In this document: piece by piece, positions 4,659-34,416 of the stretch
How positions within the stretch are numbered: position 1 is the first letter of the stretch
How the letters are laid out: every line of letters begins with the position of its first letter
Assembly: GCA_026988155.1 (NCBI GenBank)
Contig: JALSLW010000032.1
Coordinates: forward strand, 1 to 64,000
DNA: 64,000 nucleotides
Direction of reading: 5' to 3'
DNA from: Methylomonas sp.
Lineage (GTDB): Bacteria > Pseudomonadota > Gammaproteobacteria > Methylococcales > Methylomonadaceae
Translations under genes and position numbers: made by a program
The notes under the pieces: model-generated
Database searches by the model: none
Told to the model about the DNA's origin: nothing
Seen by the model: only the letters and a program-made list of their open reading frames with translations

Positions 4659-6451
4659 ATATTGAAAGCAAAGCAACCGCAAGCGTTATAGCTGTTCAAG
4701 ATGACATTGTTTCAATTCAATCGTTAGAAGGCTCAGTATTACCGTTAACTAAAAATGAAGTTATTTTTATTATCCCCACACGTAAGTCCGCTCAGCATAA
4801 GGAACGCTTAAAGGCAGAGGTTTTACGCATAAATGGTGATACTGCCGATGCCCAGGTCTATGAAAGTACTCATGGTGTGGGGGTGGGGGATCTGGTCGAA
4901 CAGACAGGGGAAATGCTATCGGTTGAGTTGGGGCCAGGGTTGCTTGGTCAAGTCTACGACGGTCTGCAAAACCCTTTGGATGTATTGGCTACAGATTTTG
5001 GTTTTTTTCTGCCCAGAGGTGTTGATTTACCGGCTTTAAATGTTAAGGCTAAATGGGCTTTTACGCCTTGCGTGCAATCAGGAGCTGTGTTGAAGGCAAG
5101 TTCGGTAATTGGCACAGTGGTTGAAAGAGGGTTTATCCATAAAATTATGGTTCCCTTTGATATTAAAGGTGAGGTCAAGCTTAGCTGGATTCAGGAAGGT
5201 AATGTAACTGTTACAGAAGCAGTAGCAAAAATAAAAGATAGAAAAGATAAAGAACAGGCTATTACTTTACGGCAGCACTGGCCGGTTCGTAAGCCAATTC
5301 CTCAGCAGTTAATAAAAAATAACATTGTACAAAGGCAATATCCTTCAGAACCTTTAATCACTCATTTACGGTTGGTTGATACTTTTTTCCCCATTGCAAA
5401 AGGCGGAACAGCCTGTATTCCTGGGCCGTTTGGTGCGGGAAAAACAGTATTGCAGAACCTTATTTCAAGAAATTCAGATGTCGATATTGTGCTGGTAGTA
5501 GCGTGTGGCGAAAGGGCGGGCGAGGTGGTTGAAACCATTACTGAGCTGCCCCAGATGAATGACTCGAAAACAGGCAACTCTTTAATGGATAGAACCATTA
5601 TTATTTGCAATACTTCCTCTATGCCTGTTGCTGCAAGAGAGGCTTCAATCTATACGGGGATTACACTAGGCGAATATTATCGGCAAATGGGGCTTAATGT
5701 TTTATTGCTGGCTGACTCAACTTCACGTTGGGCACAGGCTATGCGGGAAACCTCGGGAAGGTTGGAAGAGATTCCTGGGGAAGAAGCCTTTCCGGCCTAT
5801 CTGGACTCTGCAATTAAAAGCATTTATGAGCGGGCAGGAGTTATTCTTACTGCTGATGAAGTTACAGGCAGTTTAACTATGATTGGCACGGTTTCACCTG
5901 CCGGAGGAAACTTTGAAGAGCCTGTTACCCAGGCAACATTAGGTACGGTTAAAACTTTCTTGGGCTTGAGTGCAGACAGAGCCTATAAACGCTTTTATCC
6001 TGCCGTTGATCCGCTACTTTCATGGTCTAGATATAACGAACAATTATCTGGCTGGTATGCAAAGTATTTAGATGCAGACTGGACGGATAGTGTTAAATCC
6101 ATGCTGCAACTTTTGAAACAGGGTGAAAATATATATCAAATGATTCAGGTTGCAGGCGAAGAAGGTATATCGTTAGAGGATTATGTTATTTATCAGCAGG
6201 CACTGTTTTTAGATATGGTGTATCTGCAGCAGGATGCTTTTGATGAGGTGGATGTTGCTGTTTCTATGGAGCGACAAAAAGACAATTTTAAGCGAATTGT
6301 TAAGCTGGTTAATGCAGAGTATCAATTCGCAGATCAGGAGCAGGCAAGGCTATTTTTTATTAAGCTGACTGGGCTGTTTAGAAACCTGAACTACACTAGG
6401 TTTGATTCAGCTAAGTATAAGGAAATTGCTAATAAAATTGAGATATTATAG
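4655..6451 (+). CDS. V/A-type ATPase catalytic subunit A (orphan)
   Basis: This 598-residue protein is a full-length catalytic A subunit of a bacterial V/A-type ATPase. The Walker A loop GPFGAGKT starts near residue 257, the catalytic Glu lies in CGERAGEVVE, and Walker B is seen in LLLADSTSRWAQAMRE. The A-specific N-terminal barrel and the bulge domain before the P-loop are present. In an intact complex it would hydrolyse or make ATP together with subunit B in the cytosolic V1/A1 head. Here no gene for B, D, E, I or K lies on either side: upstream is the DUF2764 gene and a relic, downstream 600 bases without a gene. Either the other subunits are elsewhere, or this is a remnant that still lacks inactivating mutations. 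The identity is certain; the function in isolation is not. Confidence 0.93.
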   Translation: MNIESKATASVIAVQDDIVSIQSLEGSVLPLTKNEVIFIIPTRKSAQHKERLKAEVLRINGDTADAQVYESTHGVGVGDLVEQTGEMLSVELGPGLLGQVYDGLQNPLDVLATDFGFFLPRGVDLPALNVKAKWAFTPCVQSGAVLKASSVIGTVVERGFIHKIMVPFDIKGEVKLSWIQEGNVTVTEAVAKIKDRKDKEQAITLRQHWPVRKPIPQQLIKNNIVQRQYPSEPLITHLRLVDTFFPIAKGGTACIPGPFGAGKTVLQNLISRNSDVDIVLVVACGERAGEVVETITELPQMNDSKTGNSLMDRTIIICNTSSMPVAAREASIYTGITLGEYYRQMGLNVLLLADSTSRWAQAMRETSGRLEEIPGEEAFPAYLDSAIKSIYERAGVILTADEVTGSLTMIGTVSPAGGNFEEPVTQATLGTVKTFLGLSADRAYKRFYPAVDPLLSWSRYNEQLSGWYAKYLDADWTDSVKSMLQLLKQGENIYQMIQVAGEEGISLEDYVIYQQALFLDMVYLQQDAFDEVDVAVSMERQKDNFKRIVKLVNAEYQFADQEQARLFFIKLTGLFRNLNYTRFDSAKYKEIANKIEIL

Positions 6452-7051
6452 ATATTTTTGTTAAATTAAGCGGTAGTTAATTAAGTTGTTTAAGGGCTCT
6501 AAAAACCAAGCGGTATTAGAATATTGTTATGTTAAAATTTTTAAAAAATAAAACACTTATTGCCCGTGAGTTTCCGCCATCTTAAACAAAATAAGAACTG
6601 GAGTATCCGTAGCACTATACACCACAGGTTATTCCTAAGATCTTCTATCGGGAGTCTACGGTTAAATATCTAGACTCCTGCTTAGAGCATGCAGTAAAGA
6701 CGAGGCTTCTGGGGCTGATATTTTTTAAGTAACGGAAGCTCATGGGTAATCAAGAAGTAAAATAACTGGATGTTGAATGAGTTTTGTCGTAGAATGGCGA
6801 CACTTTTGATAAAGTGTCCGTGAATTTTAAAAACCTCTGATGGCTAGGCCATATTATTATATACTAATGATATAATCCGGTTTATCTATCGTTACGCAAT
6901 TTTGGTATGATATTTTTTAGTGTGTCCCGTTGTATCTTAAAGGTAGGTGAACTAATTGTACTTTAGGAGAGCCATCTATTGTCAGAGTGCTTAGTTTTTT
7001 GGCGATAAGTTCAAATTAAATAATTTATTTAAAAATAAGAAGGAGAAAGTT
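6452..7051. other. Gene-free region after the ATPase subunit A
   Basis: No reading frame with a credible product is seen in these 600 bases, and no fragment of an ATPase subunit B gene could be recognised. The stretch holds one copy of the 140-bp dispersed repeat (6613-6752) and a small perfect hairpin (GACACTT/AAGTGTC near 6798-6818). The last 30 bases hold the AAGGAGAAAG ribosome site of the next gene. Confidence 0.6.
6613..6752. repeat. 140-bp dispersed repeat, copy 1
   Basis: This segment aligns without gaps to 34183-34322; I count about 109 of 140 identical positions. It begins CACTATAC and ends CTCATGGGTAATCA. Inside it are an 8-bp perfect inverted repeat (GGAGTCTA/TAGACTCC) and a second stem (GGCTTC against GAAGCTC, one G-T pair). 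Both copies are intergenic and neither codes for protein. It could be a miniature mobile element or a family of structured RNAs. The flanks diverge at once on both sides. Confidence 0.85.
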
Positions 7052-7891
7052 ATGAATAAAATGCCCTTGGCTATATTAACAGCTATATTAACAATATTTA
7101 ATACTTCAGCGTATGCTGTCACTGTGGAGCCTGCGGCATCCCCGCAAGCCAAAGATTTGTTATTTCAGTTAATCGATAAATCAGCAGGAACAAGTTTTAA
7201 CGCGATTAATCATACTATTATAAATGAAGCTGCTGCCCCTGGGTTCCCGTCACCAGGTGATACTTTTGTAACTAACGGTTATGGTGTTTTAACGCCGTCA
7301 CTTTTTGGGATGGAGCTCACTTATAGCTACAGTATTGCAGGTACTTTTACTGGGTACGACAGAGAGCAAGATAAACTATTCTTTAATCATGGTCTTACAG
7401 TACCTGGTGTAAGCAACCAAATGGAATTATATTTAGATTCTACAATTAATCCTTCTACTTTAAATGCAAATGAAAGCAATGCCAGTTCTTATACTGATGG
7501 CGTTAAAATAGCGGTTTTGGATATCGTGCCAACTGATGCCGGTACTGGTTTTCTTAAGGCATCAACAGGGACTGGGAAAGATGTGGTAACTTTTAAGTTA
7601 ACAGACAGTTATATGGAGCAATTCGGGTTATCTGAGAATACTGTTTTGCTCAATAAAATTACTTCAGATATTTCTTTAATTGATTTGGTAGACGGGCAGC
7701 CACAGGCTTTTAACTTTGGAGCCTTCAGTGGTTCCGGTTCTGGCTGTGGCGGATTAAATAAGCCGTATGATTCATGTGCAAGAGAAGTTGGAACAAGTGA
7801 GATAGTACTTAGTTCTGTTCCCGTTCCTGCTTCTTTAGGATTGTTTTTGTCTGGATTTGGAATGCTAGGTTGGCTAAAGAAACGCCAATAA
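7052..7891 (+). CDS. PEP-CTERM sorting domain protein, unknown function
   Basis: This 279-residue exported protein starts with a signal peptide (MNKMPLAILTAIL...AYA) after a strong AAGGAGAAAG ribosome site. It ends in the PEP-CTERM tripartite tail: VPVPAS, a hydrophobic helix and the basic end KKRQ. Such tails are recognised by exosortase, which removes them and passes the protein on to the cell surface or exopolysaccharide. No exosortase gene lies in the window. The body (residues 25-250) is rich in Ser, Thr, Asn and Gly and looks like a beta-rich secreted domain, with one Cys pair near the end (GSGCGG, YDSCAR). I recognise no catalytic motif. Confidence 0.88.
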   Translation: MNKMPLAILTAILTIFNTSAYAVTVEPAASPQAKDLLFQLIDKSAGTSFNAINHTIINEAAAPGFPSPGDTFVTNGYGVLTPSLFGMELTYSYSIAGTFTGYDREQDKLFFNHGLTVPGVSNQMELYLDSTINPSTLNANESNASSYTDGVKIAVLDIVPTDAGTGFLKASTGTGKDVVTFKLTDSYMEQFGLSENTVLLNKITSDISLIDLVDGQPQAFNFGAFSGSGSGCGGLNKPYDSCAREVGTSEIVLSSVPVPASLGLFLSGFGMLGWLKKRQ

Positions 7892-30688: not shown

Positions 30689-33600
30689 GTGGTGGATTTA
30701 GCAAAAGCATTGGGTTTGAATGTTCCGGAACAGGACCCTGAAGTGGTACATCAGAAGTTGCATCTGTACATTAACCTCAAGCTAGCTTCTTGTGGTCAGC
30801 CTACATGCCTGCAGGGTGATTCGGTTGATTTTATGACAATAGCAGATGATATGCTGCGCAGTTTTGTTGAAAAAAGCCGTCAGCTGACATCCCATCATTA
30901 CCCTGCCGATCAACGGATACAGGATTTTATAGATAATTATCTGGCAGATCTGAATCTAGATAATATACCGGCTTTGCCGACACTTACCTTTGAATTGGAC
31001 CGGCATGGCATAGCCAGAGAACTATCATTGCCAGCAGGAGAAGATACCTTTAACTCTGATTGCGTATCCAGCTACAGAGTTAAGCAGGGAGTATTGCATA
31101 ACCCTGCAAATGACCGCAGAACTACAAAAGGTTCGTTTCATATTGCAGCAGGCGGGCTGCCCGTTCCGGCAGATAAAAAAGAAGTGCCTAAACAAACTTT
31201 TGCGGCAATGCTGGCACATGCTTTAAAGCCACCTAAAGAAATGAATATGCTGCCGTATACAGCGAATGAAGAAACACCTGCCTTTATGTTTACTTCTTTA
31301 ATGTTGAGGCCCATTGTATGTCCTGAAATTCCTGGTATTGCAGAAGAAAAAAGCATGGAGATCAGGTTTTTTGCGCCAGGCACCTTGGTCAGTAACCTGG
31401 ATTTTGTAGAAAGTATTTTTGGCAATGGCGGAAACCCTGCTTTGCCTGAGTTTGATGCAGCCCTTGATGTAGAGCATTGGACAGGACAGAGCGGCTGTGT
31501 GATTTTGGCTCCGCATTTAGTCAAACTGACTAAAAAAGAACTGGATTTGCCTCATTGGGATGATGCAACTGAGCGGCAACGCAAAGATGGCATGTGCTGG
31601 AAAGATTCTGCAGAGCTGTATAACGATGGGCAGGCCTTTAAGCTAACTGCTCGTGATGAAAGGGGCGTTATTGTCACGATGTTGGCTGATAACTATTTTG
31701 GCTATTGCAAGAAAGAAGTTAAAACCCAAATTGGCTATGCGGCCAATCTTTATGGATTTGCCGAAGAAGAGCATGCAGGAGGCGCGCTAGCCTTTCAGCG
31801 CCAGATTCACGGTAATGAATATGGCGCTGGCGGAGCAACTAAAGAAGCAGGGTTTAGTTTTAACGATATGGTTAAAAGCTATGGTGAAATAATGCAGCTT
31901 ATGCCTGAAGGCTATGCAATTGATAGGCAATACCCTGAAATAATTTATGTACCGCAAGATGTAAAGATGGATGCGATGGCACAAACAGTCAGCTGGAAAA
32001 ATGATAAGCTGACCTGGAATACAGATAAGAAAACTTCTAGCTTAAGACTGCAGCCAGGAAAAATATACATAAAACCTAATGGCTACAAACTGGAATTGGT
32101 AAAGCATCCTGCCGCACCTTCATGGCGTATTGTTGGGACAGCATCAGAAGGCACTTTTTGCCATAAGCCCAGTACAGTTTCAGGTGGCGGTAAGTCAGAG
32201 ATTTCCAAGTCAATCAATGATGCGGTTATCTATAATTCATTTTTTGTAAATGATTTGAATGATGATTTAGGCAGAGTTCAGGCAATATTTGATAAAGACT
32301 ACAGCTACCGGTTTAAGGCGGATATTAATAAAGCCGATAAAGTGCCTAGCCGGGCATTATTAAGTGCTAATAGAAGCTTGGGATCAGTCATTAAATTACT
32401 AACGCCCTCTTCCAGCTATACTGATGAATATAATGAGTGGCTAAACGATATTCCGCCCTATATCAGGGCTTTGGTATTGCTGATCAAACGATTCTATCAG
32501 GCTGAGTGGGGGGATAATTGGCGACAATATTTTTCTGCTGATATTGTTGATGGTTCACCGGGGCATAACCTTAAATTTGAAGGAAGACAGATTATTGCCA
32601 GTTTTTTACGGGTAGGGTTTAATGAGCAAGGCGGGTGGCGTACTTTTAAAGTTAGACAGGACTTTTATGCGGCTGAAAAGATACAGGTGGAAGATGATAT
32701 TACCGCATCCGTTGTAGTTCCCGCTTCATTAGTTATTGGTTATAACAGTAAAAATGGAGAGAGCGAAAACGTTAAATTAACGGCTAACTGTGAGTACCGG
32801 CTGTTTCAGCGTCCTGATGATGCAGTTATTCCCGGTTATGATAAGCAGACCGAGATTAACATGGCTGGGCCTGATAATTTTATTGCGAATTATGAGCCTT
32901 TATCTGGTGATAAGTTATCAGCAGTGGTTGAAGATGTACTGACCATGTCCAAGTTTACTCAGCCTATGCATGATTTATTAGCACAGGCTTATCAGGACGG
33001 TGAAGGAATTGTTGTTTCATCAGCGCATCCGCGTATTGTAGATGGCAAGCCTACTAAGAACCCTCGTTATTTGGAAAGGCGTGCAGATGTAATTAATCCA
33101 ATTCGTAAGTATGTGGCAGACTTAGGTGTGCGGCTTCATAGAAAAATACCATTGCAGAATAAAATTATCCATCCGGTAAACGCAGTTTTAGCGGGTCGAC
33201 GGAATAATCCGCCAGAACCTGGCATTCGGGCATTGGCTGTCTATAACCCGATCCATTATCAGCAATTGCCTGAGCTGTTTATGGATTTTATCAGTTCCCT
33301 AACCGGTAAATCACCATCAACCACCGGAGCCGGAAGTGAAGGCGCCTTAACAAAAGGCCCTTTCAATGCACTCAGGGCAACAGCAGACTTAAATAATGCA
33401 CTGGTTTCCTTTATATTGACCGGTTATGCCGGTTTCTCCAGTTCAGCTGGTCATATTGGCTCTTATGTAAAAGTCGACCATGATATTAGTTTGTTGATTC
33501 CTGAAATTTGGACGCGTTTGACAGTAGAGGAAAGGGATCCTTCCTACCTTATTGAGCAGGGGTACATGGAAGCTCTGGAAGATTTTGAGCATAATGGACA

Positions 33601-34177
33601 GACAGTATTAGCCAGTAGGCTTGGCTATAGGATCACTGAACAGTTTGTGCATGCATTTATGGGTAAAATATTTGATAACCCTACAGCAGTGCTAACTGAA
33701 GATATTCTTAAGCCGGAGACACAGAACTTAGATGATTATGTTGATGGCATTCAAAATATTGTAGAAACTCAGAAAAAGGTTGCTCAGCAATATTTGGATG
33801 ATGGCAGTATAAATGATGCATGTCCGCCATTACAGGCATTGCTGCATATTATGGCAACAGGGAGTTTTCAGGGAAATAATGTTCATGATTCTGAAATAAG
33901 GGACCTATTTACTAAAGAAAATCTATTGGCCTCAGACTGGTATCTTGAGCGCTTGCAGATTAAACAAAATAGAGATATAGCTTTATGGCAGAAACATGTC
34001 AAAAGCCTACAGGCTTTTTCTGAAAAAACTAACTATGCAGATGAAGCTGAACGTCTGAATATTAATCAAAGGCTAATTAAGGCAAAAGCCGAACTTGAAA
34101 AAGTAGAAGGCGCAAGTTATCTTGAGCAGATGAAAGGGATGATAGGTGCAGATCCTCTTAGGCCGGCAAGGTCATAA
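30689..34177 (+). CDS. PPi-type phosphoenolpyruvate carboxykinase
   Basis: This 1162-residue protein matches the large PPi-dependent PEP carboxykinases known from Propionibacterium freudenreichii and Entamoeba histolytica, which convert oxaloacetate and pyrophosphate to PEP, phosphate and CO2, or run in reverse. Matching blocks, from memory of the family, are NDRRTTKGSFHIAAGGLPVP, TGQSGCVILAPHL, DNYFGYCKKEVKTQ, CHKPSTVSGGGKSEISKS, GSVIKLLTPS, KNPRYLE, AAGRRNNPPE-like AGRRNNPPE and TGKSPSTTGAGSEGALTKGP. It is about twice the size of ATP- or GTP-type PEPCK. The start is GTG, at 30689 or more likely 30692, since AGGAG ends 7 bases before the latter. ppdK, another PPi/PEP enzyme, lies 2 kb downstream. 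No truncation or frameshift is seen. Confidence 0.88.
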   Translation: MVDLAKALGLNVPEQDPEVVHQKLHLYINLKLASCGQPTCLQGDSVDFMTIADDMLRSFVEKSRQLTSHHYPADQRIQDFIDNYLADLNLDNIPALPTLTFELDRHGIARELSLPAGEDTFNSDCVSSYRVKQGVLHNPANDRRTTKGSFHIAAGGLPVPADKKEVPKQTFAAMLAHALKPPKEMNMLPYTANEETPAFMFTSLMLRPIVCPEIPGIAEEKSMEIRFFAPGTLVSNLDFVESIFGNGGNPALPEFDAALDVEHWTGQSGCVILAPHLVKLTKKELDLPHWDDATERQRKDGMCWKDSAELYNDGQAFKLTARDERGVIVTMLADNYFGYCKKEVKTQIGYAANLYGFAEEEHAGGALAFQRQIHGNEYGAGGATKEAGFSFNDMVKSYGEIMQLMPEGYAIDRQYPEIIYVPQDVKMDAMAQTVSWKNDKLTWNTDKKTSSLRLQPGKIYIKPNGYKLELVKHPAAPSWRIVGTASEGTFCHKPSTVSGGGKSEISKSINDAVIYNSFFVNDLNDDLGRVQAIFDKDYSYRFKADINKADKVPSRALLSANRSLGSVIKLLTPSSSYTDEYNEWLNDIPPYIRALVLLIKRFYQAEWGDNWRQYFSADIVDGSPGHNLKFEGRQIIASFLRVGFNEQGGWRTFKVRQDFYAAEKIQVEDDITASVVVPASLVIGYNSKNGESENVKLTANCEYRLFQRPDDAVIPGYDKQTEINMAGPDNFIANYEPLSGDKLSAVVEDVLTMSKFTQPMHDLLAQAYQDGEGIVVSSAHPRIVDGKPTKNPRYLERRADVINPIRKYVADLGVRLHRKIPLQNKIIHPVNAVLAGRRNNPPEPGIRALAVYNPIHYQQLPELFMDFISSLTGKSPSTTGAGSEGALTKGPFNALRATADLNNALVSFILTGYAGFSSSAGHIGSYVKVDHDISLLIPEIWTRLTVEERDPSYLIEQGYMEALEDFEHNGQTVLASRLGYRITEQFVHAFMGKIFDNPTAVLTEDILKPETQNLDDYVDGIQNIVETQKKVAQQYLDDGSINDACPPLQALLHIMATGSFQGNNVHDSEIRDLFTKENLLASDWYLERLQIKQNRDIALWQKHVKSLQAFSEKTNYADEAERLNINQRLIKAKAELEKVEGASYLEQMKGMIGADPLRPARS

Positions 34178-34182
34178 CTGCA

Positions 34183-34322
34183 CACTATATACCACGCTTT
34201 ATTCCTGAAGTCTCCTCTTAGGAGTCTATGTTTAAAAATCTATATTTCTGTTTACAGAATACAGTAATGATGGAGCTTCTGGAACTGATCTTTTTTAAGT
34301 GGCGGAAGCTCATGGGAAATCA
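34183..34322. repeat. 140-bp dispersed repeat, copy 2
   Basis: This segment aligns end to end, without gaps, with 6613-6752 (about 78% by my count). The 3' half is best kept: TTTTTTAAGT and CGGAAGCTCATGGG are shared. The stem GAGCTTC/GAAGCTC is perfect here, while the GGAGTCTA stem of copy 1 has lost its partner. It begins 6 bases after the PPi-PEPCK stop, so it could be part of that transcript's 3' end. Confidence 0.85.
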
Positions 34323-34416
34323 GGTAGATATATATGGGAAAATTTTATAAATGATTATACAATTAACTTTCAAGGTTGAATCTAACTGAAAATTTTTATT
34401 AATACGGAGAAATGCA

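Follow-up and report, generated by a model that had tools for sequence, protein, structure and literature searches.

The systems closest to the repeat analysed here are the insertion sequences of the IS1595 family and several short, multi-copy repeats of other bacteria. In the sections of its description that concern us, the IS1595 family has one transposase gene, usually makes 8-bp duplications and has a zinc finger except in one group, IS1016 (PMC8101967). The Correia element (204 bp) and other bacterial MITEs are, in the passages cited, about 200 bp long, intergenic, present in many copies, hairpin-forming and inserted at AT-rich targets (PMC10969869). Our repeat shares these properties, whereas its sequence and its partner differ from those of the Correia element and its host is a methanotroph; the two are set beside each other by description. 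The QMITE2 elements of Coxiella are likewise comparable by description: the part of the source that deals with them gives a length of 150-190 bp, direct repeats of 7-11 nt, an internal palindrome and a location mainly in 3' untranslated and intergenic DNA (PMC5896051). Their palindrome, however, is a GTAG REP, and the duplication of our repeat is fixed at 8 bp. Finally, the neisserial dRS3 repeat is given in the relevant passage as ATTCCC-N8-GGGAAT (PMC3898611); ATTCCC..GGGAAT arms within multi-copy intergenic repeats are also found here, but the window element has a pair of opposed palindromes within terminal inverted repeats (TIRs). We rejected identity with dRS3 because the arms are spaced by 13 in our alignment and the pattern, as printed there, needs N8. 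Among the matches listed in searches on IS1595 with MITEs or subgroup names, on MITEs of methanotrophs or of mussel symbionts, and on MITEs together with GTCATTCC, judged by titles and the starts of abstracts, we did not find the element described, which is no proof that it is unpublished.

Compared with these systems, the repeat in our window, i.e., the whole stretch of 64,000 nucleotides of a Methylomonas contig (JALSLW010000032.1) that was analysed, can with high confidence be read as a MITE family with IS1595-type ends, which an IS1595-family transposase would mobilise in trans. It belongs to an ordinary, known kind of transposon. What is gained is an annotation, IS1595-type MITE, for the repeats of this methanotroph genus, together with a candidate partner transposase.

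The window holds a gap-free pair of copies, 6613-6764 and 34183-34334, which lie 27,570 bp apart and are 76% identical over 152 nt; a copy-to-copy blastn comparison in the 3.4-Mb genome gives 78% over 140 nt (E 7.2e-26). This bears out the sequence-only reading of two gap-free intergenic copies about 78% alike. Both are indeed intergenic. For copy 1 the preceding ORF of at least 100 aa ends at 6451 and the following one starts at 7052; for copy 2 the corresponding positions are 34177 and 34417, and no ORF of that length lies in either copy. The same reading had proposed a defined unit of 140 bp. The repeat is real, but its limits have to be redrawn: the unit spans 6555-6754 and includes a left TIR that was overlooked earlier, the 140 bp being what could still be aligned once the left end of copy 2 had gone.

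Specifically, copy 1 is a full-length but decayed MITE of 200 bp (6555-6754, forward strand), delimited by alignment with 20 relatives and by a left TIR at 6555-6579 (forward) with 5 mismatches and a right TIR at 6730-6754 (reverse) with 3 mismatches, each of 25 positions. A target duplication is expected in the flanks, AATAAAAC at 6547-6554 and AAGTAAAA at 6755-6762, and is no longer recognisable, the two agreeing at 5 of 8 bases. Copy 2, placed by blastn and alignment at 34178-34324 on the forward strand, starts directly 3' of the stop codon of the ORF at 30689-34177. Its left TIR is missing, and the right TIR (34300-34324, reverse) has 1 mismatch of 25. The orthologue of this ORF in genome G006 ends at the same stop position without the element, so the ORF has not been shortened by copy 2. 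The erosion of the ends of copy 1, its unrecognisable duplication and the missing left end of copy 2 mark the pair as old, inactive MITE relics of IS1595 type.

The evidence for mobility comes from the relatives. Alignment of copies together with their flanks gives a 25-bp TIR consensus, CCTGATTACCCATGAGCTTCCGCCA, and in the loci fetched we count 55 TIR pairs enclosing 176-1385 bp, with all families and the full-length elements taken together. Since the TIR or the repeat served to fetch these loci, the 55 are a biased list. Pairs were deduplicated on the element plus 10-bp flanks and excluded if the two TIRs summed to more than 10 mismatches, if they exceeded 1400 bp, or if they lay within 10 bp of a locus end; two probable false pairs remain in the count, L035 1344-2674, which spans two elements, and L123 (1385 bp). 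Flanking duplications of 8 bp are exact in 33 of the 55 and match at 7 of 8 positions in another 8, i.e., 41 at 7-8 of 8, leaving 14 with fewer than 7 matches; shuffled flanks reach 7 of 8 in 3.3%. For other lengths, scored at one match short of the full length, the counts are 39 of 55 for 2 bp, 10 for 3 bp, 3 for 4 bp and 0-2 for 5-7 and 9-12 bp. The duplications are 85% A+T with the consensus WANNNNTW. Of the 18 TIR-paired members of the window's own family, 14 are flanked by a duplication matching at 7 or more of 8 positions and 11 are exactly 187 bp long, in a family size range of 186-223 bp. The family thus shows what defines a MITE: TIRs, a duplication of fixed length, a short gene-less body, and a full-length partner with matching ends.

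That partner is best represented by a 1030-bp insertion sequence in genome G008 (L073:2522-3551), whose TIRs are 2 and 1 mismatches from the consensus and which is flanked by the duplication AAGCATTT. Its single ORF of 315 aa matches the transposase domain PF12762 (DDE_Tnp_IS1595) at 1.6e-35, the zinc ribbon PF12760 (Zn_ribbon_IS1595) over residues 22-67 at 1.9e-16, and NF033547 at 3.1e-66 with 223 bits against a cut-off of 75; it encodes an IS1595-family transposase. This element has the domain pair, the single transposase gene and the 8-bp duplication of the family as the consulted parts of its description give them (PMC8101967), whereas the window elements are gene-less. Four further elements of 1018-1030 bp have like ends, with 5-7 mismatches at one end and 2-3 at the other, and the 8-bp duplication is exact in four of the five, L073 included, L117 matching at 4 of 8; the identity of the transposase was established on L073.

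MITE and insertion sequence are alike at their ends only, and blastn finds nothing of the window's family in G008, the source of L073. The window's own genome, a draft assembly, contains transposase pieces on contigs C11, C12 and C61 that are broken or cut off, those on C11 and C12 adjoining the TIR at contig ends, and yields no intact IS1595 transposase. A long open IS1595-type frame is found on C47 of G001 (190.5 bits). The 500-contig draft of G003 yields no IS1595 transposase at all, even though the TIR is most abundant there; insertion sequences present in many copies tend to break contigs in draft assemblies.

Under the proposed mechanism, a full-length element with like ends would make an IS1595-family transposase that binds the MITE's 25-bp TIRs in trans, this type of transposase being what we infer as the mobiliser. 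The MITE would then be inserted at an AT-rich, mostly intergenic site, of which 8 bp (WANNNNTW) would be duplicated. The manner of cutting and joining is that of the IS1595 family in general and would carry over to the MITE. Between the ends, the hairpin cassette of about 130 bp is most likely passenger DNA, with hairpins that would be tolerated between genes.

The distribution of the repeat is that of a mobile element within one genus. A search of the kind that the sequence-only reading had proposed returned additional copies: five blastn matches in the own genome, the query included, and at least one in each of six genomes, all from a single genus, out of the 41 searched (own included). With at most 19 candidates scored in each genome, every per-genome count is a minimum. 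The TIR itself, at up to 3 of 25 mismatches, occurs in six of the nine genomes of this genus (62 times in G003, 24 in G008, 6 in G004, 5 in G000, and twice each in G006 and G007) and not in G001, G002 and G005, and the reversed control gave 0. Blastn of the repeat against the plasmid and phage collections found nothing at E 1e-5. The earlier suggestion of a non-autonomous mobile element is therefore strongly supported by the TIRs, the 8-bp duplications, the full-length insertion sequence and this patchy presence.

Clustered by their interiors, the short TIR-bearing elements fall into groups of 22 (the window's, 4 of which lack a TIR pair), 12, 6, 5 and 4 members plus 3 singletons, and the relatives come mostly from the same Methylococcales methanotroph genus. 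Given five multi-member groups with unlike interiors and common ends, a single type of transposase may have given rise to many families of repeats. The mean identity is 64% among own-genome copies (4 of the 5 compared) and 90% among those of G003 (11 compared, range 69-98), as would be expected of relics here and of later spread in G003. Two loci, L098 and L150, hold 209-bp variants of the window's family with 24 and 23 nt added in the loop of one internal hairpin, and these inserts are seemingly each other's reverse complement. The TIR pattern is also seen in contigs titled Francisellaceae, Bacteroidetes, Desulfobulbaceae, Pseudomonadales, Neptunomonas and Zixiibacteriota (L084, L103, L109, L114, L119, L130, L141, L149, L150 and L159), reflecting either a wider spread of the insertion sequence or mis-binned contigs.

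Insertion sites avoid open frames. For the 33 sites with enough flank among the 41 that bear duplications, 3 lie inside a frame of at least 120 aa, compared with 113 of 165 positions drawn at random from those flanks. At the two window loci themselves, a search through orthologous genes turned up no clean empty site with conserved sequence on both sides. The near-side gene is kept, whereas none of the far-side window genes tried was found at the orthologous places, which makes an empty-site comparison impossible.

The gene preceding copy 1 is kept in three sister genomes, G003, G004 and G006. G004 shows nothing like copy 1 in the 720 nt after the orthologous gene. In G006 (L185, G006:C41), where the contig ends about 270 bp past the gene, two faint collinear matches resemble TIR and core; one is equalled by 1 of 100 shuffles and the other by none, and they may be what is left there of the insertion seen as window copy 1. 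The orthologous place in G003 (L186, G003:C187) is occupied by another kind of MITE, whose TIRs are similar (3 and 7 mismatches) and whose flanks show no clear duplication. This MITE, also present at L065:2551-2778, lies 3' of the orthologous V-type ATPase A gene, in the intergenic region that corresponds to that of window copy 1. Copy 2 is absent 3' of the orthologous gene in all five sister genomes that keep that gene, with 369-520 nt examined.

The position of copy 2 directly 3' of a stop codon could also mean that the MITE relics are kept as bidirectional terminators or as hairpins at mRNA 3' ends, a role that is compatible with a MITE origin. Folded as RNA, three elements form a long hairpin of -67 to -92 kcal/mol, which speaks for such a role. 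However, a promoter and terminator scan of copy 1 found nothing inside it, the terminator-like sites lying downstream at 6785-6852; the gene before copy 2 does without the element in 5 of 5 sister genomes, and the window copies are 24% divergent and eroded. We consider retention as terminators unlikely and continue to regard the copies as relics of a MITE.

A second question is whether the repeat is an RNA, as the sequence-only reading had offered as its other possibility. Inside the TIRs lie two opposed palindromes. Hairpin 1, ATTCCTAA..TCGGGAGT (6631-6655, forward strand), has 95% of cells paired and 4 pairs changed on both sides, and its commonest form in relatives is ATTCCCGA or ATCCCCGA, then N9, then TCGGGAAT or TCGGGGAT. 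Hairpin 2, ACTCCTGC..GCAGTAAA (6674-6698, forward strand), has 94% of cells paired and 1 pair changed on both sides, the commonest form being ATTCCTGC-N9-GCAGGAAT. We scored these in an alignment (A1) of 21 of the 22 cluster members, omitting L003 from the own genome, the right half of which is unalignable. For the structure made of the TIR pairing and the two hairpins, 91.8% of cells are paired across the 21 aligned copies. Nine pairs show changes in both partners, where 3.5 would be expected from shuffling and 1 of 500 shuffles reaches that many; the covariation score is 0.098 against 0.078 (reached by 0 of 500).

These are the figures that would speak for a transcribed, structured non-coding RNA family whose stems are kept for function, since TIR pairing and both local hairpins covary above shuffles. 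The excess is narrow in origin, however: of the 18 covarying cells, 9 come from a single pair, columns 104/150 (CG 11, UA 9), and additional pair types do not exceed the shuffles (214 of 500). The shuffle control ignores the relatedness of the copies, and the covariation could reflect that relatedness or the upkeep of palindromes, which transposon anatomy accounts for in this element; alone it is no proof of RNA function.

The two stems singled out earlier fare worse. In the GGAGTCTA/TAGACTCC stem 88.7% of cells are paired, and one pair is changed on both sides, in one sequence. A structure with this central stem has 88.9% of cells paired, which exceeds most shuffles (5 of 500 as high), but its covariation score is reached by 129 of 500, so that this structure holds up on pairing and not on covariation. 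The GAGCTTC stem joins part of the right TIR (6735-6741) to 6702-6709, a segment kept in the window copies and not across the family, and the regular partner of the right TIR is the left TIR. It cannot be called conserved, being half a TIR with a partner that is unconserved in the family. Compensatory changes, for which the earlier reading had suggested looking, thus do exist, but chiefly outside the stems that it named.

Other observations also speak against a structured RNA family. The 4227 Rfam families at their gathering cut-offs give 5 matches in the window and none at the repeat; the copies lie on either contig strand, between different genes and with target duplications; and copy 1, when scanned, has no promoter-like site inside. 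With no Rfam match and with both named stems failing or incidental, the RNA interpretation is very improbable, and the MITE reading is the one that we retain.

The palindromes raise another alternative, namely a REP/BIME- or dRS3-type palindrome array that spreads without TIR recognition. The opposed palindromes with their ATTCCC..GGGAAT or ATTCCT..AGGAAT arms do resemble dRS3, and 109 hairpin units are present in G002, where the IS1595-type TIR is not found at up to 3 mismatches. But the spacing is 13 and not the 8 that the dRS3 passage gives (PMC3898611), and in the window's family the palindromes sit inside TIRs, with 8-bp duplications in 14 of 18 cases. Likewise, in G001 and G002 at least seven of the palindromes lie inside another TIR frame, six of them with 6-bp duplications. 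We give this alternative scarcely any credence beside spread as a MITE.

This second frame deserves description in its own right. In the sister genomes G001 and G002 the hairpin pair is found inside elements of 345-483 bp (L011, L016, L024, L031, L227, L231 and L232) with the TIR GTCAACCCTTAAAAAC and 6-bp duplications of the form TANNTA. Seven core-bearing elements have both ends, one false second pairing of L016 being excluded from the count, and in 6 of the 7 the duplication matches at 5-6 of 6 positions. The 18 G002 regions fetched for this frame added 3 new two-ended elements, the others having an end cut off or unrecognised. The GTCAACCCTTAAAAAC pattern gives 24 matches in G001, 114 in G002 and 0 both in the four other genomes searched and in the control. 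The hairpin unit at up to 1 mismatch is spread differently: besides its 109 occurrences in G002 it is found 23 times in G003, 7 in G001, 5 in G004 and 2 in G006, with 0 in G000, G005, G007 and G008 and 0 in the control.

Two longer elements in G001 have the ends of this second frame, L220:326-1885 and L221:269-1830. They are 1560-1562 bp long, are flanked by duplications matching at 5 and 6 of 6 positions, and have an open frame of 360 aa each. The L220 frame matches the IS5-family profile NF033578 with 292.6 bits against a cut-off of 275, so the assignment of the second-frame partner to the IS5 family refers to L220. The match covers profile positions 84-418 of 419; as it begins at position 84, this copy of the transposase may be broken at its start.

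A direct comparison can be made between L012 in G001, a copy in the IS1595 frame whose TIRs have 5 and 4 mismatches and whose duplication matches at 5 of 8 positions, and L011 in G002, which is of the second frame. With the ends excluded they are 85.5% alike over 131 aligned columns, so that one cassette of about 130 bp sits in two transposon frames. We put forward, tentatively and as the less probable case, that this opposed-hairpin pair is an independent module which two unrelated transposon frames have acquired. If so, the cassette would either confer something on its carrier, such as aid in transposition or protection of a transcript, or be itself mobile. Its being common to two frames is the sole part of this analysis that a specialist might find surprising.

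The second-frame copies contain 2-12 heptamers inside. A tandem heptamer array, (GCTAAAG)n, also occupies positions 1-134 of the window, at the start of the contig. Exact four-unit RCTMARG arrays give 624 and 579 overlapping matches in G002, against 16 and 8 in the reversed control; there are fewer in G001, G000, G006 and G007, one in G022 and none in the other 35 of the 41 genomes. The own genome has another heptamer array at the end of contig C31 (L206).
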